Assembly: GCA_026399645.1 (NCBI GenBank) | Contig: JAPLQN010000037.1 | Coordinates: 1 to 56,250, forward strand | DNA: 56,250 nucleotides | Source: Candidatus Methylopumilus sp. | GTDB taxonomy: Bacteria; Pseudomonadota; Gammaproteobacteria; Burkholderiales; Methylophilaceae | Direction of reading: 5' to 3' | In this document: positions 8,284 through 48,660 of the stretch, in pieces | How the letters are laid out: each line of letters starts with the position of its first letter | Position numbering within the stretch: position 1 is the first letter of the stretch | The notes under the pieces: generated by a model | Told to the model about the DNA's origin: nothing | What the model saw: the letters and a program-made list of their open reading frames with translations, nothing else | Database searches by the model: none | Position numbers and translations under genes: made by a program

Positions 8284-8348
8284 AGTAATTAAATGACAAG
8301 TTATTGTTTGTGATTCGATTGTAGCAGATTCACAAGAGGTCTAAAATT

Positions 8349-9230: not shown

Positions 9231-10347
9231 ATAAGTGTATCAAACCTCTTAGCATTACTAATTTTGGCAATTTCATAATAATTGCTAAATAATCAACTAT
9301 TCGTGATTGGTCAGATAAAAATCTTATAGCAGATGAAGTTGGGACTTCTGTAAAAAAAATCCTAAATATTTCAGGGGCATTTTGAGGGCTAGATCTTAAA
9401 ACGGAAAGAAAGATTTTATCTAGCCAATTTGTAAGATAATTTTCCTTGTGAGCAATCATTTCATATTTAAATTCTTTTTTTGTTTTAATTTGGTGAGCCC
9501 ATAAAGCGATTCGAGTAAAGGCGTATCCAGAAGCAGGTCTTGAGGCTCCAGCAAAGTTCCCAATTTTAAAATATTGATTTTTCATTCTTCTATCAATGTA
9601 TGGTGACATTGGAAGAACGGCTTTCTCAGTTCTTATTATTTCTTTGACACTAAACTTCATTAAAGTAAGTTTATGAATCTTTTCAACTTCTTTAAAATCT
9701 ATCTCGGAAGAAAAAAAAGTTGTTTCAATTAATGCTTTGGTTTTTGAGAATGGAAGAATGTAAGTAAAAATTACATTTTTTTTAGACTCGGCAAAATCCA
9801 TCAAAGTCACAACATTCTCATCAAATATCTTTTGATTCGATATGATCTCGGAGCCAACAAAAACTTGCTTCAATGATGGGTATTTATCATCAAATGTTTT
9901 ATTCGGTCTGCTATCGACTATATTTTTGAGTAATATTTTTTTACTCTTTAATTTGACTTCCCAACCATCTTGTTTTTTTTTAATATCTTCGACTGAATGC
10001 CCCAGCCTTACTTGAATACCCTTTTTTGTAAGGTTTTTGTATAGTTCACCAAGAATTGATTCTGAGCTATAACAAGCATATCTATACTCGCCCAGATCAA
10101 TCTTATAAGATTTACTTTTTACCTTAATTTCTATTTGTGACCATTCTTTTTTAGGTTTTACACTGAAACTTTTTTTGATATCAAACAATCCTGGTCCTGA
10201 CCAAAAGCTGTATGTTTTATCATTTTTTGTATTGATATCTTTTTCAAATAAGATGAAATTGTTAATTTTTTTACTAAGAAGAGAGTTGCCAAGAGTTAAT
10301 CCAGATAAACCAGCACCAATAATTCCAATATCAAATTTTTGTTTCAT
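9220..10347 (-). CDS. crtY: Lycopene beta-cyclase
   Basis: 375 aa flavoprotein of the CrtY type, which closes both ends of lycopene to give beta-carotene. The N-terminus has the dinucleotide-binding motif IGIIGAGLSGLTLGNSLLSK. Later come FSKTKALIETTFFSSEID and IGNFAGASRPASGYAFTRIA, conserved in lycopene cyclases. It begins 3 bp after the crtB stop and its end overlaps blh. Confidence 0.9.
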   Translation of the reverse strand: MKQKFDIGIIGAGLSGLTLGNSLLSKKINNFILFEKDINTKNDKTYSFWSGPGLFDIKKSFSVKPKKEWSQIEIKVKSKSYKIDLGEYRYACYSSESILGELYKNLTKKGIQVRLGHSVEDIKKKQDGWEVKLKSKKILLKNIVDSRPNKTFDDKYPSLKQVFVGSEIISNQKIFDENVVTLMDFAESKKNVIFTYILPFSKTKALIETTFFSSEIDFKEVEKIHKLTLMKFSVKEIIRTEKAVLPMSPYIDRRMKNQYFKIGNFAGASRPASGYAFTRIALWAHQIKTKKEFKYEMIAHKENYLTNWLDKIFLSVLRSSPQNAPEIFRIFFTEVPTSSAIRFLSDQSRIVDYLAIIMKLPKLVMLRGLIHLYVK

Positions 10348-10350
10348 ATA

Positions 10351-11241
10351 TTAAAAGTGGGCCCCTGGAAGGGTCGTTATAAATTTATGCAGTTTCTTAT
10401 TATGCGGTTTTAATTTAACTTTAAAAGTGATAAGGAATTTAGCAATAATCTTCAATGTTATCAGTAACTTACAAAAATTCGTTACATAGCACCTTTTTTC
10501 TTTATGCTGATATTTAGTATTAATTAATTGATATCCAATTTGTTGGTAGAGTGTAGAAGCTAATTTAACTGCAAGAGCTGCACCCCGGGGAAGGTTATCA
10601 ATCGCTTGACTAGCGCTAGCGAAATAAATATTAGCTAAATTAATCATTTTTTTTCGAGTTAAATCTATTTTTGCGGCATTTTTTTTTGTTGGATGAGCTA
10701 TTTCTTGGGGTAAGTGTTTACCAATGAGACTCTCAGGTAGATAAATCCTATTTCGCGCACTATCTTCATAAATATCTCGAGAAATATTTACTAATTGCAT
10801 TGCAATACCTAAATCGATTGCAAAATATCGCATTTTTTTATCTTTTACGCCAAAAATGTCACAAACCATCAATCCAACAGTACCTGCAACTTGGTAACAA
10901 TAAATAATTAAAGCCTTTTCTGATTTAAATGAGGTGAATTTAATATCAGATATCTGTCCATTCAAAAACATTTTTACAAGCTTTTGGTTCGGCCAATTTT
11001 CCTTTGGAATATTATTTAATACATTAATGACTGGATGTGGCCTACCTTTATTCCACGCATCAATAAATATGAGAAGCTTTTTTTTTGCGATATTTAAGTT
11101 TTTAGCTTCGTCAACCATGTCATCTATTTTTCGACAAAAGCTATAGATAGAATAAATCGCTTGCATTTTTGCGTTATCAAGAAAAAACGATGCCCAGTAA
11201 AAGGTTTTTCCATGCTTACGCATCAATAAATTATTCTCCAT
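10351..11241 (-). CDS. crtB: Phytoene synthase
   Basis: 296 aa. Condenses two geranylgeranyl diphosphates to phytoene. Both Asp-rich signatures are seen: YSFCRKIDDMVDEAKN (about residue 33-48) and MQLVNISRDIYEDSARNRIY (about 155-175), together with GLMVCDIFGV. The Asp-rich motifs bind Mg2+ and diphosphate (family knowledge). Its start is 1 bp from the crtI stop. Confidence 0.93.
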   Translation of the reverse strand: MENNLLMRKHGKTFYWASFFLDNAKMQAIYSIYSFCRKIDDMVDEAKNLNIAKKKLLIFIDAWNKGRPHPVINVLNNIPKENWPNQKLVKMFLNGQISDIKFTSFKSEKALIIYCYQVAGTVGLMVCDIFGVKDKKMRYFAIDLGIAMQLVNISRDIYEDSARNRIYLPESLIGKHLPQEIAHPTKKNAAKIDLTRKKMINLANIYFASASQAIDNLPRGAALAVKLASTLYQQIGYQLINTKYQHKEKRCYVTNFCKLLITLKIIAKFLITFKVKLKPHNKKLHKFITTLPGAHF

Positions 11242-11242
11242 A

Positions 11243-12712
11243 CTATGGAATCAATTTATCTATGACTTTGGCTGAATTGAGAACACCTGGAACACCTGCA
11301 CCTGGATGAGTCCCAGCGCCTACGTAAAAGAGGTTTTGATATAAATCATCTTTATTGTGCGTCCTAAACCAAGCTGATTGCCTAAATAACGGGGCTATAG
11401 AGAACCCTGAGCCAAAAGGTGTATTGTAATCTTGTAAAAAATCCTCAGGGGTCATAACAAAAGATTCGCAAATATTTTCACTAAGTTTTGGCATCATAGT
11501 TTTCTCTAGAGCCTTAATAACAGATTGTGTAAAGGACGACGCCTCATCTTTCCAACTAATATTTCCTTTCAAATTTGGCACTGGCACTAGCGCATAAAAA
11601 CTATCACAGCCCATAGGTGCAAAATCAGGATCAGTTGCTGTTGGCCTATGAAGATAAATAGAAAAATCCTCAGATAGCTTATAGCGGTCAAAGATATCGC
11701 TAAGCAGTTCTTTATAACGAGGCCCCATCCAAATAGTATGGTGAGCAATATCGTCATATTTGACTTTTGTTCCAAAGAAAAGAACAAATAAACCCATTGA
11801 GTGCTTTGCTGTTTTTTGTACAAATTTATTATGAAGCGAAATTTTCTTATGCCCTATTAAATTGCTGTTTGTATAAATAGGATCTGCATTTGTAATTAAA
11901 TAATCAGCTTTGGTAAATTTACCTTCCCCAGTTTCTATACCTACAACCATTTTGTCTGTAGTAATAATTTTCTTAATTTCACTATTGAGAAATATATTTA
12001 CACCCTTGCGCTCCATGAGCATCTTTAGCTGAGATATGATTTCTCCAGTCCCTCCTTTGGCAAAAAATACTCCCCATTTTTTTTCAAGCGCGTGAATAAG
12101 AGCATAAATTGAAGTGGTATTAAAAGGATTGCCCCCAACAAGCAATGGCTGAATTGAAAATGCTTGCCTTAAATTTGGATGACTTAAATAGCTTGATACA
12201 AATTGATAAACAGATTGATAGCCCTTTAACTTAATAATATCGGGGGTATATTTAATTAAACTACTTAATTTATGAAAAGGCTGGTCAGCAAGCTTGAGAT
12301 AGCCTAATTCAAATATTTTCTCAGCATGCTGAAGCATTTTAAGGTAGCCATTGACATCTTTAGGCTCAACAGCTTTTATTTGCTCTAATAGCTGATCTTG
12401 ATCTGGGCCATAATTAAAAAATGTCCCATCATGGAATCTAAACCGATACCAAGGATCTAGAGGAATAAATTTAATAAAATCATCAATGTCTTCATTAAAT
12501 ATTTCAAATAATTCCCTAAAAAGATAAGGCGCCGTGATTACTGTTGGGCCTGCGTCATAAACAAAGCCATTTCGATTAAACTGTCTCGCTCTTCCGCCAA
12601 TTTGATCCAATTTTTCATGCAAATCGACTTCATAGCCCTTCGCCCTCATACGCAAGGCTGCGGCTATGCCACCAAACCCACTTCCAATCACAATTATTTT
12701 TTTATTTTGCAT
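11243..12712 (-). CDS. crtI: Phytoene desaturase
   Basis: 489 aa, standard length for bacterial CrtI, which desaturates phytoene to lycopene. The FAD-binding N-terminus is IVIGSGFGGIAAALRMRAKG. The C-terminal CrtI signature is NLFYVGAGTHPGAGVPGVLN. Its ATG lies 11 bp inside the end of crtE, so it is coupled to crtE. There is no carotenoid ketolase or hydroxylase gene in the cluster, so the pathway as encoded here should stop at beta-carotene/retinal. Confidence 0.95.
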   Translation of the reverse strand: MQNKKIIVIGSGFGGIAAALRMRAKGYEVDLHEKLDQIGGRARQFNRNGFVYDAGPTVITAPYLFRELFEIFNEDIDDFIKFIPLDPWYRFRFHDGTFFNYGPDQDQLLEQIKAVEPKDVNGYLKMLQHAEKIFELGYLKLADQPFHKLSSLIKYTPDIIKLKGYQSVYQFVSSYLSHPNLRQAFSIQPLLVGGNPFNTTSIYALIHALEKKWGVFFAKGGTGEIISQLKMLMERKGVNIFLNSEIKKIITTDKMVVGIETGEGKFTKADYLITNADPIYTNSNLIGHKKISLHNKFVQKTAKHSMGLFVLFFGTKVKYDDIAHHTIWMGPRYKELLSDIFDRYKLSEDFSIYLHRPTATDPDFAPMGCDSFYALVPVPNLKGNISWKDEASSFTQSVIKALEKTMMPKLSENICESFVMTPEDFLQDYNTPFGSGFSIAPLFRQSAWFRTHNKDDLYQNLFYVGAGTHPGAGVPGVLNSAKVIDKLIP

Positions 12713-13646
12713 ATATAAATTGGCCAGCTTTTTTGTCTATTCCTTCACAAAGAGAAGAAATAATAGGCCTTATGACTACTGGCATAAGGTGTAAAGAATC
12801 TTTTATATTTTCTAATATCAATTGAATCCTATCGATTAAATCATCTTTAATATTTGAAGATATTAAAAATTGCTTAAACTCATCTTTATTTTTTTTAAGA
12901 AAGTTAATTTCTTTTTCAGAAGACTTTTCTTTAATTAAAACTACCAATGCATTCATTCTTTCAAATTTAATATCTGTGGGAATTTCATTGGCTTGATTTA
13001 ATAAAATATTTTCCAAGTCATTAACGATTTGATAAGCAAGTCCTATTTCGTCTGTCATTTTTCTTAAATTAAGATAATAAGGCTCGCCTAGCTCGGCACA
13101 TTTAAACATCCCCATCATAGGCAAACAAATAAGTGGCGATGTTTTTGCCATAGCAACATTCTTATAGTCTTCCCAACCTAGATTTAAGAAGTTTGTGCTG
13201 AGATCTCCTGATTGGCCAAAAACAATTTCCTTAACAGTACCTGAAAGTAAGCCTAACAAGATGTTTTGATGCCAACCTTGTTCAATTTCAGTAATTTTTT
13301 TAAAGGACTCTGCTATTAAATAGTCGCCAGTGCATATAGCAGCGGGTATACCAAAATTTTTCCATACACTTACCTTGCCTCTTCGAACTTCATCGCTATC
13401 ACAAATGTCATCATGGAGAAGTGAGGCACTATGAATTAACTCGCAAACAACTGCCCAAATAATTGCTGTATGTTTTGACAGTCCTAATGCTTCACCGGTA
13501 GAAAGCGCTAAGTGCGAGCGGATTAATTTTCCTTCTGATTCCCCGTGCCAATTTAGCCACAGAGATAAATTCTTTTCATTCACCTCAAAAGACTTGGCTA
13601 GATGTTTTTTAACGCTCTCTAGTGAATCGCTTTCATTTGAAATCAT
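12702..13646 (-). CDS. crtE: Polyprenyl (geranylgeranyl) diphosphate synthase, with atypical second Asp motif
   Basis: 314 aa trans-isoprenyl diphosphate synthase that should make GGPP for crtB. The first Asp-rich motif is intact (SLLHDDICDSDEVRRG, about residue 76-91). The second, usually DDxxD in the text FQIxDDxLD, reads AYQIVNDLENILL here, so two of the three aspartates are replaced by Asn. Some divergent members tolerate this, and its place in the crt operon argues that it is functional, but activity and chain length are inferred from context. It starts 58 bp after the xanthorhodopsin-like gene. Confidence 0.82.
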   Translation of the reverse strand: MISNESDSLESVKKHLAKSFEVNEKNLSLWLNWHGESEGKLIRSHLALSTGEALGLSKHTAIIWAVVCELIHSASLLHDDICDSDEVRRGKVSVWKNFGIPAAICTGDYLIAESFKKITEIEQGWHQNILLGLLSGTVKEIVFGQSGDLSTNFLNLGWEDYKNVAMAKTSPLICLPMMGMFKCAELGEPYYLNLRKMTDEIGLAYQIVNDLENILLNQANEIPTDIKFERMNALVVLIKEKSSEKEINFLKKNKDEFKQFLISSNIKDDLIDRIQLILENIKDSLHLMPVVIRPIISSLCEGIDKKAGQFIYAK

Positions 13647-13704
13647 AATGAGTCTTATTTAAAAGAATATATGTGGAAAAAATATCTGTTTGTCAAAGAC
13701 TTAA

Positions 13705-14430
13705 CTAAGCGCCAATTTCTGACTTTCTTTGCGCAATAATATAAATCAAAATACCAAAAACTGATTTAGCAACTATATCAACAAAAGTGAATCCAACCTG
13801 GATACTTACGAATGCCGACAGGCCAAATAAAGGCAGGATATAAACAAGCGGATAAAACGACCAGGACAGGATAATAAGTAATCTTGTTTTTTTGAATATT
13901 GGCTGAACAACTAAAGGTTGAGTCTTGATTGATGCACCCACTCCTTTAATCATTTCGTACAATATATAAGAAAATGGAATCATTGCTAAAACCCACCAAA
14001 TAACCTTAGCAAATCCAATTGTAAGGGTTTCCCCGGGATAACCGAGAATCACCATAATCGCGGCGGCTAATGTTAGCGCCAGCCCTTTTTTGTATGTCTC
14101 TGCATGAGGCAATCTTAAGACTAAAACAAATTCTAGAAGTAACAGGGGAACGGTTAAAAGCCAATCAACATATCGATATGCATTATTAAATTGCATGCCA
14201 CTTTGTATGACTAAACCATCTTTTAATACATAAGCACTATTGAAGCTCTCAAAGATTCTTAAGTAATGGTAGGTTGTAATTAAACAAACAAGCCCCGAAA
14301 GAGTTAATGCAGTTTTGTATGCGGGGGAAACTTGTGATCTTTGAAGGAGAAAAAATACGGTTGATGCTCCAAAAGCAGCGATTGCAAAAGAGATCGCGTT
14401 ATAAACTAAATTAAACTCGTCTATGCTCAT
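13705..14430 (-). CDS. Xanthorhodopsin-like light-driven proton pump
   Basis: 241 aa, seven membrane helices and no signal peptide. Helix C reads YRYVDWLLTVPLLLLEF: D89 (proton acceptor), T93 and E100 (donor), the DTE set of outward proton pumps, with Leu97 at the spectral-tuning site, which predicts green absorption. Retinal binds K222 in FVDIVAKSVFG. THYLRIFESF-like text (TTYHYLRIFESF) and FNNAYRYVDW are typical of the xanthorhodopsin/actinorhodopsin branch. At the position matching BR Trp138 and XR Gly156 I align W146, which would block the carotenoid-antenna window. The Shine-Dalgarno is weak. It heads the crtE-I-B-Y-blh operon. Confidence 0.9.
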   Translation of the reverse strand: MSIDEFNLVYNAISFAIAAFGASTVFFLLQRSQVSPAYKTALTLSGLVCLITTYHYLRIFESFNSAYVLKDGLVIQSGMQFNNAYRYVDWLLTVPLLLLEFVLVLRLPHAETYKKGLALTLAAAIMVILGYPGETLTIGFAKVIWWVLAMIPFSYILYEMIKGVGASIKTQPLVVQPIFKKTRLLIILSWSFYPLVYILPLFGLSAFVSIQVGFTFVDIVAKSVFGILIYIIAQRKSEIGA

Positions 14431-14500
14431 GGGATTAGTGTATCGATTTTATTGTCTTAAGCTATTGATATTATTAAATTAATAAGTGAAAATAAAAAAA

Positions 14501-14524
14501 ACTGTGCAGCCAAAGCTGCACAGT
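14501..14524 (-). terminator. Rho-independent terminator of the proteorhodopsin gene
   Basis: Perfect 10-bp stem ACTGTGCAGC / GCTGCACAGT with a four-base loop (CAAA). On the minus strand it is followed by a run of T (14493-14500). It sits 20 bp past the proteorhodopsin stop and 70 bp before the second rhodopsin gene, so the proteorhodopsin is mostly expressed as a single-gene transcript. Confidence 0.92.
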
Positions 14525-14544
14525 TTTTTAAAAAAATTACATAC

Positions 14545-15336
14545 TTATTTTGATTCTGATACTGCTACAGACCAAATAATTACACCGAAAGCAATTTTGT
14601 TTAAAACGTCAGCTAAGTTATAGATGATGTTTAATGATGCCATGCTGCTTGCAGGATCTGAACCAGTTAAATAACCAAAGTAATAACCTAATGGATAAAT
14701 TGCCCAACCAAATGTAACAATTAATCGCATTGTATTGAAAGCTTTTTGCACTGTTGCTGGAGCTTTGTTTGCATTGATCTTACCTGCTTCACCAGCGAAA
14801 ATTTCGTAGAGGATATAAGCCCATCCAAGCATACCAATAATGAATGATGTCATAACGTCTGCGTAACCAGCTTCACCAGCATACCCACCGCCAAGCATAA
14901 CTAAAGTACCAATTAAAAGTCTCCAAAAAACACCGTTGGAAACCTTAGTAATCGCTGAAAGAACTAAATAAAATTCAATCATTAATAAAGGCACTGTAAT
15001 TAACCAATCAATATATCTATACACTGTTGGTGTTGATCCTGTTGCAACCCACACGTCACGCATATAGAAATAGTGAACAGCTGCTACTAATGTAACTAAA
15101 CCAGACACAGTAAGAGAAGTTTTCCACTTACCAGCTACACGATCTCTTTCAAGGAAGAAAAAAGCAGTTGAAGCAACTAATGCCATCGAAATTAGCCAAA
15201 AAGAAATACCAACGAAATCATTTGCTTGGAGAACTTGAGCTCCATGACTCTCTGCAAAAGCTAATGTTGATAAGCCTAATAAAGACAATCCTAATAAGCA
15301 TTTATTTTTTACGGATTTAAAAAAATCTTGAAACAT
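14545..15336 (-). CDS. Proteorhodopsin, green-tuned proton pump
   Basis: 263 aa with a cleavable signal peptide (about residues 1-28, LSLLGLSTLAFA), then seven helices. Helix C is YRYIDWLITVPLLMIEFYL: D110, T114 and E121 form the proton-pump set, and Leu118 equals position 105 of proteorhodopsin, the green variant. His88 (VHYFYMRDVW) matches the counterion-pairing His75. Retinal Lys is K247 (LADVLNKIAFG). The BR Trp138 equivalent aligns to F165. A very strong Shine-Dalgarno (AGGAGG at 15342-15347, 5 nt from ATG) and its own terminator suggest high, independent expression. Confidence 0.96.
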   Translation of the reverse strand: MFQDFFKSVKNKCLLGLSLLGLSTLAFAESHGAQVLQANDFVGISFWLISMALVASTAFFFLERDRVAGKWKTSLTVSGLVTLVAAVHYFYMRDVWVATGSTPTVYRYIDWLITVPLLMIEFYLVLSAITKVSNGVFWRLLIGTLVMLGGGYAGEAGYADVMTSFIIGMLGWAYILYEIFAGEAGKINANKAPATVQKAFNTMRLIVTFGWAIYPLGYYFGYLTGSDPASSMASLNIIYNLADVLNKIAFGVIIWSVAVSESK

Positions 15337-23111: not shown

Positions 23112-23214
23112 CGTTTTGTAACACACCTCTATCACCGCCTCAATAAAAACCTGTAATTAGGGCTTACTTGTAACCCTGATAGATTTTACTATTGATAAGA
23201 AATACTTATCACAT
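23112..23214 (+). repeat. Possible divergent copy of the C-rich intergenic repeat
   Basis: TTTTGTAACACACCTCTATC at 23114-23133 matches TTTTGTAATACACGCCTATT at 54533-54552 at most positions, with a CCGCCTCAATAAAAACC block next, and AAATACTTATCAC at the far end. It has no tRNA-like tail. It lies between cytochrome c5 and the Cys-rich peptide gene. Confidence 0.4.
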
Positions 23215-23293
23215 ACTTAAAAACAATTCATTGGATTTATCTAAACAAGAGACATAGAATTTGCTCATACAAACTATTTGTGAGGCAATGAAA

Positions 23294-23449
23294 ATGAAAT
23301 CAAAAAAAGAAATTAAAACATCTGAAATTTTAGAGAAAAACGAAAATTTAAAAAATTCAAAAAATATAGATGAAAATAATTGTGTATGTAAACAAAATGA
23401 CAAAGACTGCTGGCATAGATATTCATCAGCAATGGGCGATTGCGTTTAA
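23294..23449 (+). CDS. Short Cys-rich peptide with CW.RY.SAM.DCV tail, copy 1
   Basis: Start taken at ATG 23294 because GAGG at 23282-23285 is 8 nt upstream; an ATG at 23288 and a TTG at 23261 are in frame. That gives 51 aa: a charged Lys/Glu/Asn-rich N-terminal part, then CVCKQNDKDCWHRYSSAMGD and a final CV. The paralogue at 48661-48837 keeps VCKQxDxxCWxRYxSAMxDCV while the N-terminal part is unrelated in detail. No signal peptide or membrane helix. This leader-plus-conserved-Cys-tail layout is compatible with a modified peptide precursor or a metal-binding peptide. Family not recognised. Confidence 0.75.
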   Translation: MKSKKEIKTSEILEKNENLKNSKNIDENNCVCKQNDKDCWHRYSSAMGDCV

Positions 23450-23722: not shown

Positions 23723-25828
23723 ATGAGTACTTATTTAAATCGTAGCACACTCCTTAACACCGAAGAAGCAACGGCCTTGCGTGATCAAATTCGCCAGTAT
23801 TTTCATCAAACTGCAGATTTATATGAGAGCTTGTTTCAGACCCTAGTTAGTGATGAAGCTTATTATTTAAACCCAAGCAGATTAAGACATCCGCTGATTT
23901 TTTATTATGGCCATACTAATACTTTTTTTATTAATAAATTAATTTTAGCAGGCTTAATAACTGAGCGCGTCAATCCTCAATTTGAATCGATGTTTGCTGT
24001 GGGTGTAGATGAAATGGGCTGGGACGACATCAATGCGCAAAATTATAATTGGCCCACGCCTTTAGAAGTTAAAACTTACCGTGCTAGTGTGCGCCAAGTG
24101 GTTGATCAATTAATTTGTACATTGCCGCTTAACTTACCTGTGGATTGGGAGAATCAGTGGTGGCCTATTGTAATGGGTATAGAGCATGAGCGTATTCATT
24201 TAGAAACTAGCTCAGTATTAATCCGCCAACATGCTTTGCACCATGTACAAAAAAAAGACACTTGGCAGTCATGTCCAGTAATAGACACCCCAGCACCTGC
24301 AAACAGTTTGGTGGACATAGCAGCGAGATTCATTAAATTAAGTAAATCTCCTGAATATTACGGCTGGGATAATGAGTACGGTAATTTCGAAGATGAATGC
24401 CCAGCGTTTCAAGCAGCGAAATACTTAACTTCCAACGCGGAGTTTTTTGCTTTTGTCGAAGCCGGCGGATACAAAGACGACTCGTATTGGCAGGAAGAAG
24501 GATTAGCTTGGCGGCATTACGCTCAAGCAATGCATCCGACTTTCTGGGTAAAACAAGGTGATGTTTGGAAGCTTAGATTAATGACGGAAGAAGTTGCTAT
24601 GCCTTGGAGTTGGCCAGTCGAAGTCAATTACCACGAAGCAAAAGCTTTTTGCAATTGGCAGTCTACTAAGATGGGTAAGCAAGTGCGTATGCCATCAGAG
24701 CATGAGTGGTATAGCCTCTATGCCCATGCTGGCTTGTCAGATGAAAAGGTAAGAGGTAGTATGAATGCTAATCTATTTTTAGACCATTACGCTTCCTCTT
24801 GCCCAGTCAATACATATGCACACGGTGATTTGTATGATGTGGTTGGTAATGTTTGGCAATGGACAGAGACCCCTATTTTTCCGTTTGATGGGTTTAAGGT
24901 GCACCCCTTATATGATGATTTCTCCACACCTACATTCGATGGTCGTCATAACATCATTAAAGGTGGTTCGTGGATAGCCTCTGGCAACGAAGCCCTAAAA
25001 GATGCACGTTACGCGTTTCGCCGACATTTTTTTCAACACGCAGGATTCCGCTACATTGTGACTGATACGCCTCTACAAATTAATGCCTCGCATTACGAAA
25101 CTGATAAACAACTTTCAGAATATGCTGAGTTTCATTATGGTGATACCTACTTTGGTGTGCCAAATTTTCCTAAAGCGCTGAGTGATTTTGTATTACAACA
25201 CTTGCACACACGACCCGCCAAAAAAGCTTTGGATTTGGGATGCGCAACTGGCCGCGCTTCGTTTGAGTTAGCAAAGCATTTTGACCATGTCACTGGTATA
25301 GATTTTTCCGCACGATTTATTGGTTTAGCGTTAAAACTTGTCCAACAAGGCATACTGCGTTACACCATGGTGAACGAAGGTGATTTAGTGAGCTACCAGG
25401 AACGCAGTTTAACTGATCTTAAATTAACAGATGTAGCGCACAAAGTTGATTTTTGGCAAGGTGATGCCTGCAATCTTAAGCCACAATTTACTGGCTACGA
25501 TTTTATACTGGCTGCCAATTTAATTGATCGCCTTTACAACCCACGTGATTTTTTAAGCAATATTCACCATAGGTTAAATATAGGCGGCGTCTTAATGATC
25601 ACCTCACCCTACACTTGGCTAGAAGAACACACGCCTCGTGACCAGTGGATAGGAGGCCACAAGCAAGACGGCGAAAATGTCAGCACTATAGATGGCCTCA
25701 AAGCATTGCTTGGTGAGCACTTTAAGCTTATGCAATCGCCCATTGAAATTCCTTTTGTAATTCGTGAAACACGGCATAAATTCCAACACAGCTTGTCCGA
25801 AGTGACCTTGTGGGAACGCATGCGCTGA
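23723..25828 (+). CDS. ovoA: OvoA, 5-histidylcysteine sulfoxide synthase with methyltransferase domain
   Basis: 701 aa in three parts. An N-terminal DinB-like domain carries the non-haem iron motif in GIEHERIHLETSSVL (HxxxHxE, about residue 153). A central FGE-sulfatase-like domain has MPSEHEWYSLYAHAG, YDVVGNVWQWTET and IKGGSWIASG..RYAFRRHF. A C-terminal SAM methyltransferase has ALDLGCATGRASFELAKHFD. This fusion is the OvoA architecture: O2-dependent coupling of histidine and cysteine, then N-methylation of 5-thiohistidine to ovothiol A. The DNA is visibly richer in GC than the flanks. Its TGA overlaps the next ATG. Confidence 0.93.
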   Translation: MSTYLNRSTLLNTEEATALRDQIRQYFHQTADLYESLFQTLVSDEAYYLNPSRLRHPLIFYYGHTNTFFINKLILAGLITERVNPQFESMFAVGVDEMGWDDINAQNYNWPTPLEVKTYRASVRQVVDQLICTLPLNLPVDWENQWWPIVMGIEHERIHLETSSVLIRQHALHHVQKKDTWQSCPVIDTPAPANSLVDIAARFIKLSKSPEYYGWDNEYGNFEDECPAFQAAKYLTSNAEFFAFVEAGGYKDDSYWQEEGLAWRHYAQAMHPTFWVKQGDVWKLRLMTEEVAMPWSWPVEVNYHEAKAFCNWQSTKMGKQVRMPSEHEWYSLYAHAGLSDEKVRGSMNANLFLDHYASSCPVNTYAHGDLYDVVGNVWQWTETPIFPFDGFKVHPLYDDFSTPTFDGRHNIIKGGSWIASGNEALKDARYAFRRHFFQHAGFRYIVTDTPLQINASHYETDKQLSEYAEFHYGDTYFGVPNFPKALSDFVLQHLHTRPAKKALDLGCATGRASFELAKHFDHVTGIDFSARFIGLALKLVQQGILRYTMVNEGDLVSYQERSLTDLKLTDVAHKVDFWQGDACNLKPQFTGYDFILAANLIDRLYNPRDFLSNIHHRLNIGGVLMITSPYTWLEEHTPRDQWIGGHKQDGENVSTIDGLKALLGEHFKLMQSPIEIPFVIRETRHKFQHSLSEVTLWERMR

Positions 25829-27030
25829 TGCAACGTTTTGACAAAACCATCTCACGGGAGGCAAGTTCATCGCTAAAATATGATGGCAGGCTTGAAACAT
25901 TTGGCACGAATGATGTCTTGCCAATGTGGGTCGCAGACATGGACTTTGCAGTACCCGATGCTGTTACAGAAGCATTACAAAAAAGAGCCAACCATCCCAT
26001 ATACGGCTATTCAATTGCACCAGAAAGCCTCTATCAAGCTCTAATCGATTGGTTACTTCTAAAGCATCGGTGGCCAGTAAAACGCGAGTGGATAGTGCTG
26101 ACACCTGGCGTGGTGCCTTCCTTAAACTTGGTTGTGGCGGCATTGACGGCAGAAAATGCAGGTGTCATAGTTCAGCCCCCGGTGTATTTCCCTTTTCTAT
26201 CTGCAGTAGAGAGTCAGCATCGTCGTTTGATAGAAAACCCCTTGATTTTAGAAGAAGATGATTTGGGTAATTTGCATTATCAAATGGATCTTTTACAGCT
26301 AGATACCTGCGCTAAAGAAGCAAGCTTACTGATGTTTTGCTCGCCTCATAACCCAGTCGGACGGGTTTGGTTAAAAGAAGAGTTACTGGCCTTATTGGCT
26401 GTTGCAAAAAAGCACAGTTTAATTATTCTAGCCGATGAAATTCATGCAGACTTGGTGTTTACCGATGCGCAACATTACACACTAAGTCGCCTTGCTTTTG
26501 AGGCTTCTCCAACACCATCAAGCATTGATGAGCCTCACGCTATCATCACAGCCATTTCGCCCAGCAAAACCTTTAATATCCCAGGCTTGGGACTTTCTGC
26601 ATTAATCATACCCGATGCCATTTACCGTCACACCATTCAATCGCATCTTGCTAAGATGGCTGTTTCAGTGACTAACCCATTTAGTATGATTGCATTCGAA
26701 GCCGCCTACCGTGGTGGAGCTGACTGGTTACGTGAATTAATGGCTTACCTTCAAACGACACGTGATGAGGCTGTTGCATTTATTCGCGCGCATATACCAA
26801 AAATAAATGTGGTGTGCCCACAAGGTACATATCTACTTTGGTTAGATTGCAGAAAATTAAACTTAGGTGACAAGGCATTAGCTCTATTTTTTGTGCAAGA
26901 AGCGCAGTTAGGTTTATCCAATGGTGCAATGTTTGGACGCGGTGGCAACGGTTTTATGCGCTTGAACATAGGCACTCCCAGAGCAAATGTCATGAAAGCG
27001 CTTGATCGTTTGAAATCTGCTTTGTCGTGA
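25828..27030 (+). CDS. ovoB: PLP-dependent C-S lyase (PatB/MalY type), probable OvoB
   Basis: 400 aa from the ATG at 25828, which overlaps the ovoA stop as TGATG; a GTG at 25810 is a less likely start. Fold-type I aminotransferase features: DVLPMWVADMDFAVPDAVTE, GVVPSLNLVV, FCSPHNPVGRVW, ILADEIHADLVF and the PLP lysine in ISPSKTFNIPGLGLSAL. The PatB/MalY group contains cystathionine beta-lyases and also OvoB, which cleaves 5-histidylcysteine sulfoxide to 5-thiohistidine. Overlap with ovoA makes OvoB the best call; the specificity itself cannot be read from sequence. Confidence 0.87.
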   Translation: MQRFDKTISREASSSLKYDGRLETFGTNDVLPMWVADMDFAVPDAVTEALQKRANHPIYGYSIAPESLYQALIDWLLLKHRWPVKREWIVLTPGVVPSLNLVVAALTAENAGVIVQPPVYFPFLSAVESQHRRLIENPLILEEDDLGNLHYQMDLLQLDTCAKEASLLMFCSPHNPVGRVWLKEELLALLAVAKKHSLIILADEIHADLVFTDAQHYTLSRLAFEASPTPSSIDEPHAIITAISPSKTFNIPGLGLSALIIPDAIYRHTIQSHLAKMAVSVTNPFSMIAFEAAYRGGADWLRELMAYLQTTRDEAVAFIRAHIPKINVVCPQGTYLLWLDCRKLNLGDKALALFFVQEAQLGLSNGAMFGRGGNGFMRLNIGTPRANVMKALDRLKSALS

Positions 27031-27161
27031 TTTGATGCTTTTACTTTCTACTCTTAACGACAAGGGTTACACCACCCTTTTATCTCGAACCTACTTTATT
27101 AATACAAAGGCTTTTTTTAACTTCTTTATGAACCTCTACTTGCACACTCTAAGCCGCGCCT

Positions 27162-28985
27162 ATGCACTCCTCTAAAATAGAAAATAACGTTAAACAAAAA
27201 AAGCAGCGTCATCAAGACTGGAATGTCATTAAGAACTTATTGCCTTACATAAAGGCTTACAAAGCACGCATTATTTTTACGCTTATATGCTTAGTGTTAG
27301 CGAAGGTGGCTAACTTGGGCGTGCCTATTATGCTCAAGAATATAGTGGATGCGATGAGTATTACTTCAACGCCAAAAGCATTACTGGTGGTGCCCGTAAG
27401 CTTAATTGTGGCTTACGGTTTGTTGCGCCTTTCAGCCTCCCTATTTGCAGAGTTGCGAGAGTTAATTTTTTCTAAAGTCACTGAGCAAGCTGTAAGGCAA
27501 GTAGGTTTACAAGTGTTTAATCATCTCCATGCCTTATCTTTACGTTTTCACTTATCTCGTCAAACAGGTGGTATGACACGAGATATTGAACGTGGCACAC
27601 GCGGCATTCAATCGCTGATCTCATATTCTCTTTACAGTATTATTCCCACTTTAATCGAACTTGCTATGGTGTTAGGTTATCTTTTATTTGCTTATGATAT
27701 TAGGTTTGTATTGGTAACGTTTATTGCACTGATTTGTTATGTGGTGTTTACAGTAGTTGTTACAGAGTGGAGAACAAACTTTAGGCGGGAAATGAATAGC
27801 CTTGACTCACAGGCCAACCAAAGTGCTGTGGATACTTTAATTAATTTTGAAACAGTTAAGTATTTTGGTAATGAACAGTTTGAATCTGCGCGTTATGATG
27901 TCAGCCTAAAAAAATATGCACACGCTGTGATTAAGTCGCAAAAGTCATTAGCTTTTTTAAACTTTGGTCAGCAAATTATTATCGTTTTTGGGTTGGTATG
28001 TATTTTAGGTTTGGCGAGCCAAGGCGTTGCTAACAAAGAAATGACTATTGGTGATTTAGTATTAGTAAATGTGCTCATGATACAACTCTACATACCACTT
28101 AACTTTCTCGGTGTGCTCTACCGTGAAATGAAGCAATCGTTAACTGATATAGACCGCATGTTTAGTTTACTAAAAACGGATCAAGAAATTTCTGATCTAC
28201 CAAATGCAACAGCATTGCAAATAAAATCCCCAGAGATAGGACCGCATGTTTGTTTTAAAGACGTTAGTTTTTATTACGAACAAAACCGCAGCATATTAAA
28301 TCAAGTATCGTTTGAAATTTTACCAGGCCAAACAACTGCCGTTGTTGGTCACAGCGGTGCCGGAAAAAGTACCTTAGGTCGACTAATATTCCGTTTTTAT
28401 GACGTGCAATCGGGCGCCATTTATTTGGACGGCCAAGATATCAAAACGGTTAAACAAGCAGGACTTAGACAGGCTATAGGTATAGTGCCGCAAGATACGG
28501 TGCTGTTTAACGACACCATAGGATTTAATATTGCTTACGGTAAGCCGGGTGCGAGTCAATCTGACATAGAAGCAGCAGCTCAATCCGCCCAAATCCATGA
28601 TTTTATTTCTAGTCTACCAAATGGTTACAACACCAATGTAGGTGAGCGGGGTCTCAAGCTTTCTGGTGGCGAGAAGCAACGCGTAGCTATCGCAAGAACA
28701 CTGCTAAAAAATCCTTCCCTACTTATCTTTGATGAAGCGACCTCGGCGTTGGATTCTGAAACGGAACGCAGCATTCAAAAGGAATTAAACGAGTTAGCCA
28801 AAAATCGCACGACATTAATCATCGCGCATCGCCTTTCAACCATCACACATGCCCATCAGATTTTAGTCATGGAAGCAGGTAGTATTATTGAACGCGGCAC
28901 CCATGAATCACTTTTAAAGGAAGGTCAGCGCTATGCGGAAATGTGGCGTGTGCAACAAAGCCAGATCCACTCATTAGCCCTATGA
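27162..28985 (+). CDS. Atm1/HMT1-type ABC half-transporter
   Basis: 607 aa: six-helix membrane domain (about residues 35-330), then the ATPase with Walker A GHSGAGKSTLGR, the signature LSGGEKQRVAIARTLL, Walker B LLIFDEATSALD and the H-loop IIAHRLST. FETVKYFGNEQFE and VPIMLKNIVDAM are characteristic of the mitochondrial-Atm1/bacterial group that exports glutathione or other thiol derivatives (family knowledge). Its position 130 bp behind ovoAB in the GC-rich block suggests a link to thiol or metal export, which is inference. Confidence 0.88.
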   Translation: MHSSKIENNVKQKKQRHQDWNVIKNLLPYIKAYKARIIFTLICLVLAKVANLGVPIMLKNIVDAMSITSTPKALLVVPVSLIVAYGLLRLSASLFAELRELIFSKVTEQAVRQVGLQVFNHLHALSLRFHLSRQTGGMTRDIERGTRGIQSLISYSLYSIIPTLIELAMVLGYLLFAYDIRFVLVTFIALICYVVFTVVVTEWRTNFRREMNSLDSQANQSAVDTLINFETVKYFGNEQFESARYDVSLKKYAHAVIKSQKSLAFLNFGQQIIIVFGLVCILGLASQGVANKEMTIGDLVLVNVLMIQLYIPLNFLGVLYREMKQSLTDIDRMFSLLKTDQEISDLPNATALQIKSPEIGPHVCFKDVSFYYEQNRSILNQVSFEILPGQTTAVVGHSGAGKSTLGRLIFRFYDVQSGAIYLDGQDIKTVKQAGLRQAIGIVPQDTVLFNDTIGFNIAYGKPGASQSDIEAAAQSAQIHDFISSLPNGYNTNVGERGLKLSGGEKQRVAIARTLLKNPSLLIFDEATSALDSETERSIQKELNELAKNRTTLIIAHRLSTITHAHQILVMEAGSIIERGTHESLLKEGQRYAEMWRVQQSQIHSLAL

Positions 28986-29012
28986 TTAAGATTTTGTATT
29001 GAACAAGCTAGC

Positions 29013-29456
29013 TCAGGCGATGCGTTTTAATGAGAGTGCATTCACGCAATAACGAAGCTTGCTGGGCGCTGGGCCGTCTGGAAATATATGACCTAAGTGC
29101 GCATCGCAAGTGCTACAAGTGATTTCAACCCGAACACTACTTAAACTGCCATCGCTAAAATAAGCCACCGCATTGGGCTCTAGGGGTTGTGTAAAAGAAG
29201 GCCAGCCCGTGCCGGAATCAAACTTTTCTGTTGCATCAAACAGCATGGTGTCGCAGCAGGCGCAAGCATAAAAGCCTGGTTCAAAGTGAGCACACATGGG
29301 TGAACTGAATGGGCGTTCTGTACCTGCATGGCGCGTGACGTCATGGACATCGCTAGGCAATATATTGCGCCATTGATCGTCTGTTTTTTCTACGCGGTGA
29401 TTCGCGGGTGGATTACCATGAAGTACGCGATTTTCAATATCTTGCCAAGTCAGCAT
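29013..29456 (-). CDS. msrB: Methionine-R-sulfoxide reductase MsrB
   Basis: 147 aa. Zinc cysteines in YACACCDTMLF and EITCSTCDAHLGHIF, substrate residues in KFDSGTGWPSF, and catalytic Cys in LRYCVNALSL. Reduces the R form of free or protein-bound methionine sulfoxide in the cytoplasm. It is convergent with the ABC transporter (27 bp apart) and belongs to the GC-richer block. Confidence 0.95.
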   Translation of the reverse strand: MLTWQDIENRVLHGNPPANHRVEKTDDQWRNILPSDVHDVTRHAGTERPFSSPMCAHFEPGFYACACCDTMLFDATEKFDSGTGWPSFTQPLEPNAVAYFSDGSLSSVRVEITCSTCDAHLGHIFPDGPAPSKLRYCVNALSLKRIA

Positions 29457-29645
29457 AAAAATACCTTTAGGGTTATGAGTTAATAAATTGTACTAGTCAG
29501 ATGTGATTTAAAAAAATTAGTTCTCAATACGCTGCATCAAAATCTTGATTTTTTATTCGCATAACATTGAAACTTATACTGTAAAAAGTGTCACTAAGCA
29601 TTGGTTAATAAATAATACTTTTTCAATTAGGCTAAGGATGCCCTC

Positions 29646-30737
29646 ATGAATACTATGCCACTTAATAAAACTGACCGCATGCGTGGCGCGCTTTGGGGTA
29701 TGTTTGTAGGTGATGCACTGGCGATGCCAGTGCATTGGTACTACAGTATTGCCACCCTTTGGCAAGATTTTGGTCAGATAAAAGATTACCAAGCGCCTAA
29801 AGCGCATCATCCTAACTCGATTATGTCTCTCGCCAACACCAGCAAAGCAGGACGTGGAACGCAAGAAGGCGATATTGTTGGAAGCGTCATACTTAAAGGC
29901 AAAAAGCACCATTGGGGTCCAGCTAATCGTCATTACCATCAGGGAATGCAAGCAGGCGAAAATACACTTAATTTACTGTGTGCGAGAGTTTTGTTGCGCT
30001 CGCTTAATGCAACAGGCGATTATGATCCCGCTGATTTTTTACGTGAGTATGTTGGCTTTATGACAGAGCCTGACCGACATAACGATACTTACGCGGAATC
30101 TTACCATCGAGATTTTTTTGCGAACTATGCAAAAGGTGTTCCTCCTGAAAAGTGCGCTGGGGCCGAAGGTCATGATACGGCATCTATAGGCGGCTTGGTT
30201 AGCCTCCCTATGCTTATCATAGCAAGCTTAAGCGAGGGTAACTTAACAACTACTACCGCTAAAGCCTTAAACCATCAACGCCTAACTCACCGCTCATCCT
30301 CACTGGAAATTTACTCTAGTGAACTTAGCGCATTGTTATTTCATATTTTTCAAGAGACAAATCCAAATACAGAAGAACTCGCCTGCGCTGCAGCAAGTCG
30401 TCTTGGATTTCCTGCGGCGAAAGTAGTTGCTTCTGTGCGCAGTAAGCAAAGTTCTGATTGTGACGTCATTGGTGGCTTACTCAGTTCTGCTTGTTACATA
30501 GACCAGTCTTTCCCCTCCGTCCTTTACCTCGCCTCACGCTACTCTAATAATTTCGAAGCGGCACTGATCGCTAATACTAATGTTGGCGGCGACAACTGTC
30601 ACCGTGGTGCTGTCTTAGGCGCAATACTTGGGTCAAGTTTAGGATTTGAAGCCATTCCTAAGCGCTGGATTGATGGCTTAATAGCCCATGATGAACTGAA
30701 TAATGAAATAGAAACGTTTATCAGACGCTTTGAATAA
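29646..30737 (+). CDS. ADP-ribosylglycohydrolase-like protein
   Basis: 363 aa. DRMRGALWGMFVGDALAMPV at the N-terminus and SNNFEAALIANTNVGGDNCH with RGAVLGAILG near the C-terminus fit the DraG/ARH fold (COG1397). The usual metal-binding DTD text is replaced by NTNVGGDN here, so the dinuclear metal site may differ and the substrate is uncertain. HWYYSIATLWQDFGQIKDY and the many His residues are notable. Last gene of the GC-richer block. Confidence 0.72.
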   Translation: MNTMPLNKTDRMRGALWGMFVGDALAMPVHWYYSIATLWQDFGQIKDYQAPKAHHPNSIMSLANTSKAGRGTQEGDIVGSVILKGKKHHWGPANRHYHQGMQAGENTLNLLCARVLLRSLNATGDYDPADFLREYVGFMTEPDRHNDTYAESYHRDFFANYAKGVPPEKCAGAEGHDTASIGGLVSLPMLIIASLSEGNLTTTTAKALNHQRLTHRSSSLEIYSSELSALLFHIFQETNPNTEELACAAASRLGFPAAKVVASVRSKQSSDCDVIGGLLSSACYIDQSFPSVLYLASRYSNNFEAALIANTNVGGDNCHRGAVLGAILGSSLGFEAIPKRWIDGLIAHDELNNEIETFIRRFE

Positions 30738-36531: not shown

Positions 36532-37035
36532 TTAGAAAGATAAATTAATATCTCTGATGAAATGACATGAGTAGCCATCTGGATATTTCTCTAAATATTT
36601 TTGATGATTATCTTCGGCAAGAAAAAATATATTAAATCTATTAACTTCCGTCGTAATTTTTTTTATTAAAACTCCTGATGTATCAATCTTTTTAATTAAT
36701 TCCTCGGCCAATAAAATTTGCTCGTCCGTTGTCGCAAAAATTGCTGATCGATATTGAGTTCCAATATCATTGCCTTGCTGGTTCAGTGTGGTTGGATTAT
36801 GCATTTTGAAATAAAATTTAAGTAAATCGGTAAAGCTTAAAACATCAGAATTAAAAATAACTTTTACTGTTTCAGCATGCCCTGTAGTCCCTGTTGTAAC
36901 CTCTCGATAACAGACATTTTTAACATGTCCGCCAGAGAAACCGACAGCCGTCTCAATGACACCTGGTATTTTGCTTAAGAGGTCTTCAAGGCCCCAATAG
37001 CATCCCCCTGCTAAATATACCGTCTCATTAGCCAT
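36532..37035 (-). CDS. msrA: Methionine-S-sulfoxide reductase MsrA
   Basis: 167 aa. LAGGCYWGLEDLL carries the catalytic Cys (GCYWG instead of the commoner GCFWG), VGFSGGHVKNVCYREVTTGT and GHAETVKVIF are standard blocks, and QGNDIGTQYRSAIF holds substrate residues. Repairs the S epimer of methionine sulfoxide. It starts 2 bp after the stop of the 36-aa ORF, so the pair is coupled. Confidence 0.95.
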   Translation of the reverse strand: MANETVYLAGGCYWGLEDLLSKIPGVIETAVGFSGGHVKNVCYREVTTGTTGHAETVKVIFNSDVLSFTDLLKFYFKMHNPTTLNQQGNDIGTQYRSAIFATTDEQILLAEELIKKIDTSGVLIKKITTEVNRFNIFFLAEDNHQKYLEKYPDGYSCHFIRDINLSF

Positions 37036-37037
37036 AT

Positions 37038-37148
37038 TTAATAAAACAAATATTTAATAAAAGTTGCAATACCTAAAACATAAAACGCTGTCCCAAGGCC
37101 GCATGTAAAAGCCATATGCCAATTATATTTACATTTCTTTTTAGCCAT
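37038..37148 (-). CDS. 36-aa membrane mini-protein, copy 2
   Basis: Reads MAKKKCKYNWHMAFTCGLGT, then AFYVLGIATFIKYLFY and stop, a close paralogue of the ORF at 17985-18095. Conserved Cys6 and Cys16 flank a WHMAF segment, followed by one membrane helix. Here it is the first gene before msrA (2-bp gap); copy 1 precedes DUF2805-DUF2256-HNH. Conservation at amino-acid level with many silent changes shows selection on the protein. No family recognised. Confidence 0.8.
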   Translation of the reverse strand: MAKKKCKYNWHMAFTCGLGTAFYVLGIATFIKYLFY

Positions 37149-46711: not shown

Positions 46712-47449
46712 CTATTTTACTAAAGGTCTGATACTTGAAAAGCCGCCATCAATAGACCAAACTTGACCTGTAACTCTTTGGGCTTTTTCAGACAACAGCC
46801 AAGCCATTAAATCAGCAACTTCTTCAGGACTTCCAATACCTTTAATTGGGTACTGTTTCGCAGCTATTTCTCTCATTAGATCACTTGTTAAAAGATTTGC
46901 TGAAGCGGGAGTATCCAAAATTCCAGGGGAAACTGCATTAATACGAATATTTGAAGCAGCATATGAAGCAGCAGAGCTCCTTACAAGCGCCTCAAGCCCT
47001 CCCTTTGCAGCTGATATGACTTCATGATTGGAAATACCTATGCTAGCAGCTGCTGATGAAACAAAAACTGCTGACCCATGAATAGCTGATTTTTTTAAAT
47101 GATCTACAAAACCTGACAATGTGAATAATGCACTAAATAGGTTTGCTGACATGCAATCAAAGAAATCAGCTTCGGATGTTCTATGAAGTGATCCAAGTCT
47201 AATGTTGCCAACACAATGCGCTAAGCTATCTATGGTGATGTTTCTTTCTACAATTTCATCAAATATTTGTTTAACTCCCTGGAAACTCGAGCAGTCTGCA
47301 GTAATTTGAATGTGCTTATCTCCGTAAATCTCTTGAAGTTTTTCTGAATTTCTACTCACTAAAACTAGTTGCCTGTTATTTTTAGTTAAGTTTTCAGCCA
47401 AGGCTTGAGCTAAGCCACCAGTTGCACCTGTGATTAATACTTTTTTCAT
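46712..47449 (-). CDS. Short-chain dehydrogenase/reductase
   Basis: 245 aa classical SDR. VLITGATGGLAQALAENLTK gives the NAD(P) site, NRQLVLVSRN suggests NADP preference, SAVFVSSAAASIGISNHEVI with SAAKGGLEALVRSSA hold the catalytic Ser and an unusual Ser-Ala-Ala-Lys where Tyr-x-x-x-Lys is expected, and VTGQVWSIDGGFSSIRPLVK ends the chain. The missing tyrosine (HEVISAAKGG) makes catalysis doubtful or altered. 52 bp upstream of the renalase-like gene. Confidence 0.83.
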   Translation of the reverse strand: MKKVLITGATGGLAQALAENLTKNNRQLVLVSRNSEKLQEIYGDKHIQITADCSSFQGVKQIFDEIVERNITIDSLAHCVGNIRLGSLHRTSEADFFDCMSANLFSALFTLSGFVDHLKKSAIHGSAVFVSSAAASIGISNHEVISAAKGGLEALVRSSAASYAASNIRINAVSPGILDTPASANLLTSDLMREIAAKQYPIKGIGSPEEVADLMAWLLSEKAQRVTGQVWSIDGGFSSIRPLVK

Positions 47450-47503
47450 ATTTGCACCTTTTAAGCTCTTAAAAATATTGACTTGAGGTGAATCTAATTA
47501 AGA

Positions 47504-47899
47504 TTAACTATGAATCTGATAACCTAAAAATAATCCATAAGCTCCACCTAGCCATAATCCAGCTACAACTAAGAGAGAAATTAAATGTCCCCATCTCTTC
47601 TGGCTTGGATATTTACTGTGCGCATAGGAATCCCATGCACTAGCAACAATCCAAATAAGGCCAGAATCGCCAGCACCTTTGGTACTTAAGAATGATGCAT
47701 AGATCCAAAGTGCTGGAATGAACATAGCAAAGTTAATCAAAGCTGCGTTTTGATGCCTTAATGAATTAAGGATAGTAAACGTGGCATTGCTACTTAAATT
47801 TGAACTGATTGTTTGGCTAAGCAAAGTATTATTAACAAAAAGCCAAAAAACAGCTAAAAGAGTAATAGCAAATGGGTATATGCAGCTATTTAGAAACAT
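47504..47899 (-). CDS. Uncharacterised four-helix membrane protein behind azurin
   Basis: 131 aa with about three to four hydrophobic segments (residues 8-25, about 57-72, about 76-90, about 107-126). KRWGHLISLLVVAGLWLGGA is a typical last helix. It starts 8 bp after the azurin stop, so the two are probably one operon. No family recognised. Confidence 0.6.
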   Translation of the reverse strand: MFLNSCIYPFAITLLAVFWLFVNNTLLSQTISSNLSSNATFTILNSLRHQNAALINFAMFIPALWIYASFLSTKGAGDSGLIWIVASAWDSYAHSKYPSQKRWGHLISLLVVAGLWLGGAYGLFLGYQIHS

Positions 47900-48348: not shown

Positions 48349-48660
48349 GATTTTTCCTTAATTATTATTGTAAAAACATCTTTATGACAAAAATTATTTA
48401 TTTTAGTTCTTGAGAGTTATACTTAAAAAAAGCTATCTATAGGTTTCATCACAATTAGTTCAATCATTATTACTGTCTATTATTTTTTTTATATACAGAT
48501 TTTTCTTCATGAATTTACTTAAAATTAAGATTAAGTGAATTATTCTAAGACTTAGCTAGTCACAAAAATAACTGCTTCAAAGAATAAAATGCTACCTACT
48601 TTTTAGTGGTCAGAAAAGATAAATATTAATAATTTTTTTAAAAGTCTAAAGGGGATAGTT
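48349..48660. other. 312-bp region without a recognised gene
   Basis: AT-rich divergent spacer between azurin (minus) and the Cys-rich peptide (plus). Apart from the Shine-Dalgarno AAGGGG at 48650-48655 for the peptide and presumably two promoters, I see no supported element. Confidence 0.5.

Follow-up and report, generated by a model that had tools for sequence, protein, structure and literature searches.

The window, that is, the whole 56,250-nucleotide stretch of Candidatus Methylopumilus sp. DNA analyzed here (contig C21, one of the 98 contigs of a 1.2-Mb genome), contains two short genes, copy 1 and copy 2, that belong to an unnamed family of small proteins with a conserved C-terminal tail (Table 1). 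The initial annotation read them as frames encoding peptides of 51 and 58 residues, and this is what was found: each frame is preceded by a Shine–Dalgarno sequence, and translation of the opposite strand encounters stops within both stretches. For copy 1 an alternative start, 6 nt upstream of the one used, is possible. The two copies matched each other with an E value of 7.9e-10 in a search of their own genome, where a different contig bears a divergent third copy (G000:C38:6939-7097). These features, combined with matches throughout the genus and purifying selection on the tail, indicate that both frames are real genes. Judged by eye, the peptides carry no export signal.

Elsewhere in the window, positions 7000–15336 hold two rhodopsin genes, carotenoid/retinal genes, and a citrate-transporter-family gene. 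The rhodopsin genes are accompanied by genes for phytoene synthase and beta-carotene dioxygenase, a combination that fits Ca. Methylopumilus as described in PMC6794327.

Table 1. Positions of the two peptide genes and of associated features in the window and in related loci
Feature	Position	Strand	Remarks
Copy 1 (branch A), 51 aa	23294..23449	+	Ends ...CKQNDKDCWHRYSSAMGDCV-stop; alternative ATG at 23288
Copy 2 (branch B), 58 aa	48661..48837	+	Ends ...CKQGDTVCWQRYTSAMTDCV-stop
Shine–Dalgarno GAGG of copy 1	23282..23285	+	Read from sequence
Shine–Dalgarno AAAGGGG of copy 2	48648..48654	+	Read from sequence
Operator-like element ACTTATC-N24-ATTTATC upstream of copy 1	23204..23241	+	Single match in window at ≤1 mismatch
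Possible sigma-70-like promoter TTGGAT-N18-TAGAAT	23231..23260	+	By eye only
Ovothiol-type genes and two further genes downstream of copy 1	23723..30737	.	Outside the family unit; variable presence in relatives
msrA	36532..37035
36-aa frame with hydrophobic stretch, just before msrA	37038..37148	-
Short-chain dehydrogenase gene	46712..47449	-	Named by Pfam
Weak leader match directly before the short-chain dehydrogenase gene	47448..47505	-	26.2 bits; E 0.0014 in window, E 0.031 in genome
Leader before 102-aa gene	L208, L215-L220, L222, L223, about 1501-1560		R1 matches
Leader with compensatory changes	L125 6877-6937; also L083, L089, L176, L185, others

Membership and conservation of the family

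A total of 74 members, 32–63 residues in size (roughly 30–65), were collected from small-genome Methylophilaceae and a few larger relatives, and their reading frames fall into eight branches, A–H. Branch A (12 members, two of them from genera g16 and g18, loci L079 and L080) is of the copy 1 type and branch B (10 members) of the copy 2 type. Branches C (6 members) and D (8 members) precede msrA in genera g1 and g2, respectively; branch E (6 members) is found at ahpC/ahpF in g2, and branch F (5 members) at several g2 sites. Branches G and H occupy the thiS site of g1 and g2 and, with thiS-site relatives in g7, g15, and g19, amount to 27 members. The member at L101, from a poor metagenome-assembled genome (MAG), has no ATG start.

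Comparison of the branches bears out the initial view of an unrecognized family with a variable N terminus and a conserved C-terminal tail. Arg at position –10 (counted from the C terminus), Asp at –3, and the penultimate Cys at –2 are present in 74/74 members, a count that is partly by construction since the pattern R-x6-D-C-x was used in part of the collecting, although the profile searches did not demand it. The initial annotation had further taken three Cys residues, together with Trp, Tyr, and Met, to be fixed, which holds for the two window copies and fails for the family: Cys(–13) occurs in 47 of the 74 members, the first Cys (at –20 or –19) in 45, Trp(–12) in 22, and Met(–5) in 21. The earlier motif covers two branches only, and the other Cys, Trp, Tyr, and Met are dispensable. 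All three Cys are combined in 45/74 members, including every member of branches A, B, D, E, and F, but in 0/27 at the thiS site, where 26 members lack both upstream Cys positions; Cys(–13) itself is found in 46/47 members of branches A–F vs. 1/27 at the thiS site. There is no invariant His within the last 22 positions of the 74 members.

The tail is under purifying selection. Pooled Nei–Gojobori dN/dS values for the last 20 codons are 0.063 in branch A (n = 12), 0.099 in B (n = 10), 0.101 in C (five of six members), and 0.008 in D (seven of eight), and the corresponding values for the rest of the gene, taken from same-length pairs only, are 0.70, 0.19, 0.37, and 0.26.

Distribution and database searches

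Each of the 16 genomes searched in the window's genus contains one to five matches to the family profile. Among 187 Methylophilaceae genomes, copy 2 as query yielded matches in 23 at E ≤ 0.1, and 21-row and 26-row alignments in 35 and 43, respectively, at E ≤ 0.05, the weakest of these being chance matches. The wider profile searches for the tail used genome samples and, in larger genomes, scored part of the first-look candidates. At the level of the order, alignment A2 matched 16/399 genomes, nine of them outside Methylophilaceae (E 0.004–0.046), and in none of the ten places that were read does the tail close a short frame; alignment A5 matched 10/399, three of them outside Methylophilaceae and in frames of 438–925 residues. 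At the level of the class, alignment A3 matched the window's own genome alone among 369 genomes. No convincing member was found beyond Methylophilaceae in the 399 order and 369 class genomes sampled.

A partial-tail scan of a collection of named genomes returned 21 stretches, 20 of them with a peptide frame; 19 of these were translated for the residue counts, and L161, which has no ATG start, was left out. The matches carry the names Ca. Methylopumilus (including Ca. Methylopumilus universalis), KB13, LSUCC0665, LSUCC0717, and Methylophilaceae MAGs, and some MAGs with the peptide are filed under wider names. A stretch in a Neoflavobacterium MAG (L151), with no ATG and about 46 open codons inside what appears to be another gene, was taken as chance.

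Twelve of the proteins gave no match above noise in Pfam and NCBIfam. The PDB held no relative (single match at E 1.3). A phage origin was considered and rejected, with four single weak matches (E 0.03–0.07) for 26 members compared with PHROGs. Listings of the literature, which are weak evidence of absence, contained nothing recognizable as this family or its leader RNA and no paper joining Methylopumilus and ovothiol.

Gene neighborhoods

Among loci picked because they contain a peptide gene, the recurrent neighbors of the family are thiS-thiG, msrA, and ahpC/ahpF, so that some members adjoin enzymes that handle sulfur or peroxide. At 27 loci in five genera, the peptide gene lies upstream of and divergent from thiG, with thiS between them where it was called. 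Eighteen of these loci are in g1 and g2 (L105, L125-L140, L142); there the peptide gene is divergent from thiS-thiG and meets a dienelactone hydrolase gene stop to stop in 17/18, the sole exception being L142 from a poor MAG. In g7, g15, and g19, the peptide gene is again upstream of thiG on the other strand, and the convergent gene differs. ThiS, ThiG, and the hydrolase were named by Pfam in L125 and assigned elsewhere by clustering. Because of its spread, the thiS site is presumably the ancestral location. Among 20 further Methylophilaceae genomes, it holds a member in 6/6 of g2 and 3/14 of other genera, so that 11 of the 14 thiS sites read outside g1 and g2 are without one; G105 (g16) has a branch-A member and a thiS site (L173) without a member.

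In branches C and D, the first ATG of msrA follows the peptide stop by 5–15 nt in 14/14 loci from two genera, the identity of msrA resting on Pfam PMSR matches for one locus per genus (L070 and L088). An msrA gene with no adjoining peptide is present in the window, L076, and L081. In the window, a 36-residue frame occupies the place before msrA that is held by a family member in relatives. Branch E members lie between ahpC and ahpF in L097, L101, L102, and L103, and L097 and L102 have a DoxX gene in this interval as well; in L099 and L100, the member comes directly after ahpF (Pfam names for L097). Branches A, B, and F have no fixed neighbor, several of the gene names having been assigned by eye only, and the next gene is on the opposite strand in L071, L072, L076, and L086. 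At three branch-B loci (L078, L082, L085), inspection by eye places the peptide after a pqqA-like frame and a terminator-like hairpin.

Copy 1 is followed by a block comprising an ovothiol-type synthase, an aminotransferase-fold lyase, an ABC exporter, and two further genes, a proximity that the initial annotation had allowed might be chance. The comparison of relatives supports this caution: ovothiol-type genes follow the peptide in only 3/12 branch-A loci (the window, L068, and L069), and in L071 and L072 a cytochrome c gene, the peptide, and an aminotransferase-class (kbl-like) gene adjoin with no ovothiol block between. Where present, the block sits between the peptide and the kbl-like gene. 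The ovothiol neighbor of copy 1 thus reflects insertion or deletion, and the link was set aside.

Upstream of copy 1 is an operator-like element, the pattern of which was chosen after inspection; by chance it is expected 0.08 times per window, with at least one occurrence in 7/100 shuffles. A scan that additionally demanded a middle motif found it nowhere else in the window or in the larger loci. Elements of the form ACTTATC-N24-AYTTATC (0–1 mismatch) precede 9/12 branch-A and 3/5 branch-F members, which belong to more than one genus and occupy different genomic sites; this suggests that the operator-bearing promoter and the peptide may move as one unit. An OxyR-like reading of this branch A/F operator would be conceivable but plays no part in the interpretation below.

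A tandem-hairpin leader RNA

A different control region precedes other branches. In 38/74 upstream regions, no more than 80 nt from the start, there is a hairpin that has at least four stem pairs and a CA[ACT]AA pentaloop, a loop pattern settled on once the regions had been inspected. In 200 mononucleotide shuffles, such regions numbered 1.05 on average and never more than 6. The hairpin is present before 26/27 thiS-site members, 8/8 of branch D, and 4/6 of branch C (of the two exceptions, one is truncated at the edge of its contig) and before 0/33 of branches A, B, E, and F; neither window copy bears the tandem-hairpin leader. A second small hairpin with a like loop (CAMAA/CAUAA pentaloops) contains the ribosome-binding site.

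In alignment A7, which holds 24 of the 38 leaders, 87.2% of cells pair vs. 65.4% in shuffles, with 59 two-sided changes vs. 18.3. Two-sided changes occur in 7/7 pairs of hairpin 1, and slid structures fall to 25–50%. Alignment A6, with 25 of the 26 thiS-site leaders (L185 left out), shows 85.7% vs. 77.4% pairing and 32 vs. 12.9 two-sided changes. The number of double-changed pairs and the number of pair types do not exceed those in shuffles (A7, 83 and 115 of 500; A6, 249 and 265). Hairpin 2 shows little covariation, its three inner pairs forming in 24/24 rows of A7 and its fourth in 7/24. Among seven single-sequence folds (z-scores –0.9 to –3.6), both hairpins appear in four (L125, L176, L083, L089), hairpin 1 with a different or weaker second hairpin in L185 and L219, and another fold in L138. 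Rfam searches at the gathering score found nothing in the window and tRNA only in 10 loci, and a permissive search over part of L185 returned three matches at the level of noise (E 1–3.4). The leader is, then, a covarying tandem hairpin that is common to thiS- and msrA-site members and absent from Rfam.

The leader model R1 was run on the 16 genus genomes, with 150 candidates scored per genome. Beyond the peptides, it matched at least nine sites before a gene encoding a 102-residue protein with a hydrophobic N terminus (E 1.1e-5 to 0.0036), one example of which (L208) has no Pfam match. The weak match before the short-chain dehydrogenase gene of the window is tied to neither copy, and L224 has a match before the same gene type (E 0.003). 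Tandem-hairpin leaders are known from CsrA/RsmA-type and mini-ykkC-type systems. The family leader resembles both in having a pair of small hairpins ahead of the start codon, of which the second overlaps the ribosome-binding site, but differs from them in its CAMAA/CAUAA pentaloops and in having no Rfam match at the gathering score.

Discussion

The present study suggests, tentatively, that these peptides are free-standing thiol or persulfide carriers or adaptors that would work like the C-terminal arm of DsrC/TusE without its fold, a reading that we regard as a serious possibility rather than as the expected answer. What points to it is the combination of one universal penultimate Cys, a dispensable second Cys, and recurrent neighbors with roles in sulfur or thiol handling; the chemistry of the Cys, its partner, and the function of the family are inferred. 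In DsrC, according to PMC3397948, Cys111, the penultimate residue, is strictly conserved and is the site at which persulfuration was found, and relatives that lack DsrAB almost always have another residue in place of Cys100. Like the arm of DsrC/TusE/DsvC (TIGR03342), the family C terminus has a conserved penultimate Cys (in all members, partly by construction), and, as in the DsrC/TusE proteins described in PMC3397948, a second Cys stands eleven residues earlier in one part of the family and is absent in another. The resulting C-x10-C-x-COOH layout is found in 46/47 members of branches A–F, including those at the msrA and ahpC/ahpF sites, and in 1/27 thiS-site members; branches A–F would thus correspond to the two-Cys form of the arm and the thiS branch to a one-Cys form. 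Unlike DsrC/TusE, the family lacks a globular domain, its body is predicted to be poorly ordered, and its tail is predicted to be helical. The 12 proteins compared with Pfam and NCBIfam showed no sequence or family similarity to DsrC/TusE above noise, and among the neighbors named by Pfam or by eye none was recognized as a dsr or tus gene. The likeness is therefore one of layout, not of sequence or fold, and extends to how the peptides may work, not to family membership.

Structure prediction is consistent with such an arm. An AlphaFold2 model of copy 2 built with 21 homologues has a helix at residues 44–55, with a mean pLDDT of 82 for residues 41–50, that stops just before D56-C57-V58. Residues 21–34 have pLDDT values below 50, and the overall mean of 59.9 denotes low confidence; with two sequences, AlphaFold produced no tail helix. 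The peptides would probably be cytoplasmic proteins in which a poorly ordered body leads into a short helix at the C terminus; this helix would end in D-C-x-COOH, with the penultimate Cys as the working residue. The conserved face of the predicted helix (R –10, the aromatic residue at –9, A/S at –6, and Cys –13 where present) may dock on a partner, and the Cys may carry a thiol, persulfide, or mixed disulfide that it delivers to thiol-dependent enzymes or takes from them, much as the flexible C-terminal arm of DsrC/TusE does, except that here the carrier would be a free peptide with no globular domain. Paralogs might then differ in output depending on where they sit (at msrA, ahpC/ahpF, or thiS-thiG) and on their control region. 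Counting against the carrier reading are the near absence of the two-Cys layout at the thiS site (1/27), the lack of a fixed neighbor in branches A, B, and F, and the msrA genes (window, L076, L081) and 11/14 thiS sites that have no peptide.

The nearest rival to the carrier reading is that of redox-sensing regulatory small proteins, in which the helix would bind a regulator, a protease, or a ribosome component and oxidation of Cys(–2) would switch that binding with no carriage of sulfur. The short tail with one conserved face and a single universal Cys, the stress-gene neighbors in part of the family, and control regions that differ between branches would all suit such an adaptor, but one Cys alone cannot separate sensing from carriage; we consider this model unlikely, though deserving of attention.

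Conservation that is concentrated in the final residues and keeps a constant distance from the stop codon, together with the msrA starts that follow so closely in all branch C and D loci, would also suit nascent-chain leader peptides whose last residues stall the ribosome and control the next gene. TnaC and SecM are arrest or leader peptides of this kind, and the family resembles them in its C-terminal conservation in register with the stop codon. In contrast to them, however, many members lack a gene that they could regulate in cis: at the g1/g2 thiS site, the next gene is convergent and its stop touches the peptide stop (17/18 loci), and in L071, L072, L076, and L086, it is on the other strand, so that no downstream gene could be regulated in cis at those loci. 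An arrest leader was thus rejected for the family as a whole, since the co-directional downstream gene of branches C and D is missing at the thiS site and at several branch-A loci, and the explanation is improbable.

The initial annotation had also offered a small metal- or haem-binding peptide, for which the three Cys of 45 members, among them every one in branches A, B, D, E, and F, could furnish a site. The thiS-site members (0/27 with three Cys, 26/27 without both upstream ones) and the absence of an invariant His in the last 22 positions argue against this; with one universal Cys there is no invariant ligand set, and a three-Cys site is distinctly improbable.

The modified peptide precursor that the initial annotation had put forward is not supported. 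The family does resemble RiPP precursors, such as pearlins, bufferins, and PqqA, in its short genes, Cys near the C terminus, and several copies. In RiPP precursors, however, the leader is normally the conserved part, whereas here the N terminus varies from branch to branch and the end is conserved. MNIO (PF05114) and YcaO (PF02624) were found in 0/16 genus genomes, nine of them at least 90% complete, vs. 2/14 and 5/14 control genomes, respectively; SPASM (PF13186) gave 14 matches in 11/16 genus genomes, 10 of them in frames of 395–399 residues that are presumably PqqE. Moreover, no maturation gene or exporter was recognized among those peptide neighbors that were annotated by Pfam or by eye, save the ABC exporter of the ovothiol block near copy 1. 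A RiPP origin is accordingly very improbable.

Returning to the carrier reading, a fuller model, which we put forward as somewhat doubtful, is that the family is an arm-only carrier class whose tail has been kept in two-Cys and single-Cys forms and duplicated beside different thiol enzymes in streamlined, abundant lake and sea bacteria, part of it, with at least one unrelated gene, being under a CAMAA-hairpin leader that would be read by a trans-acting factor. The leader stands as a finding in its own right: such a covarying RNA element, placed ahead of unrelated genes, may point to a novel post-transcriptional regulon of aquatic methylotrophs. Genomes of 1.2–1.4 Mb hold few dispensable genes, yet every genus genome searched has between one and five family matches. 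If the penultimate Cys is indeed a carrier, these peptides would constitute a minimal thiol or sulfur relay.
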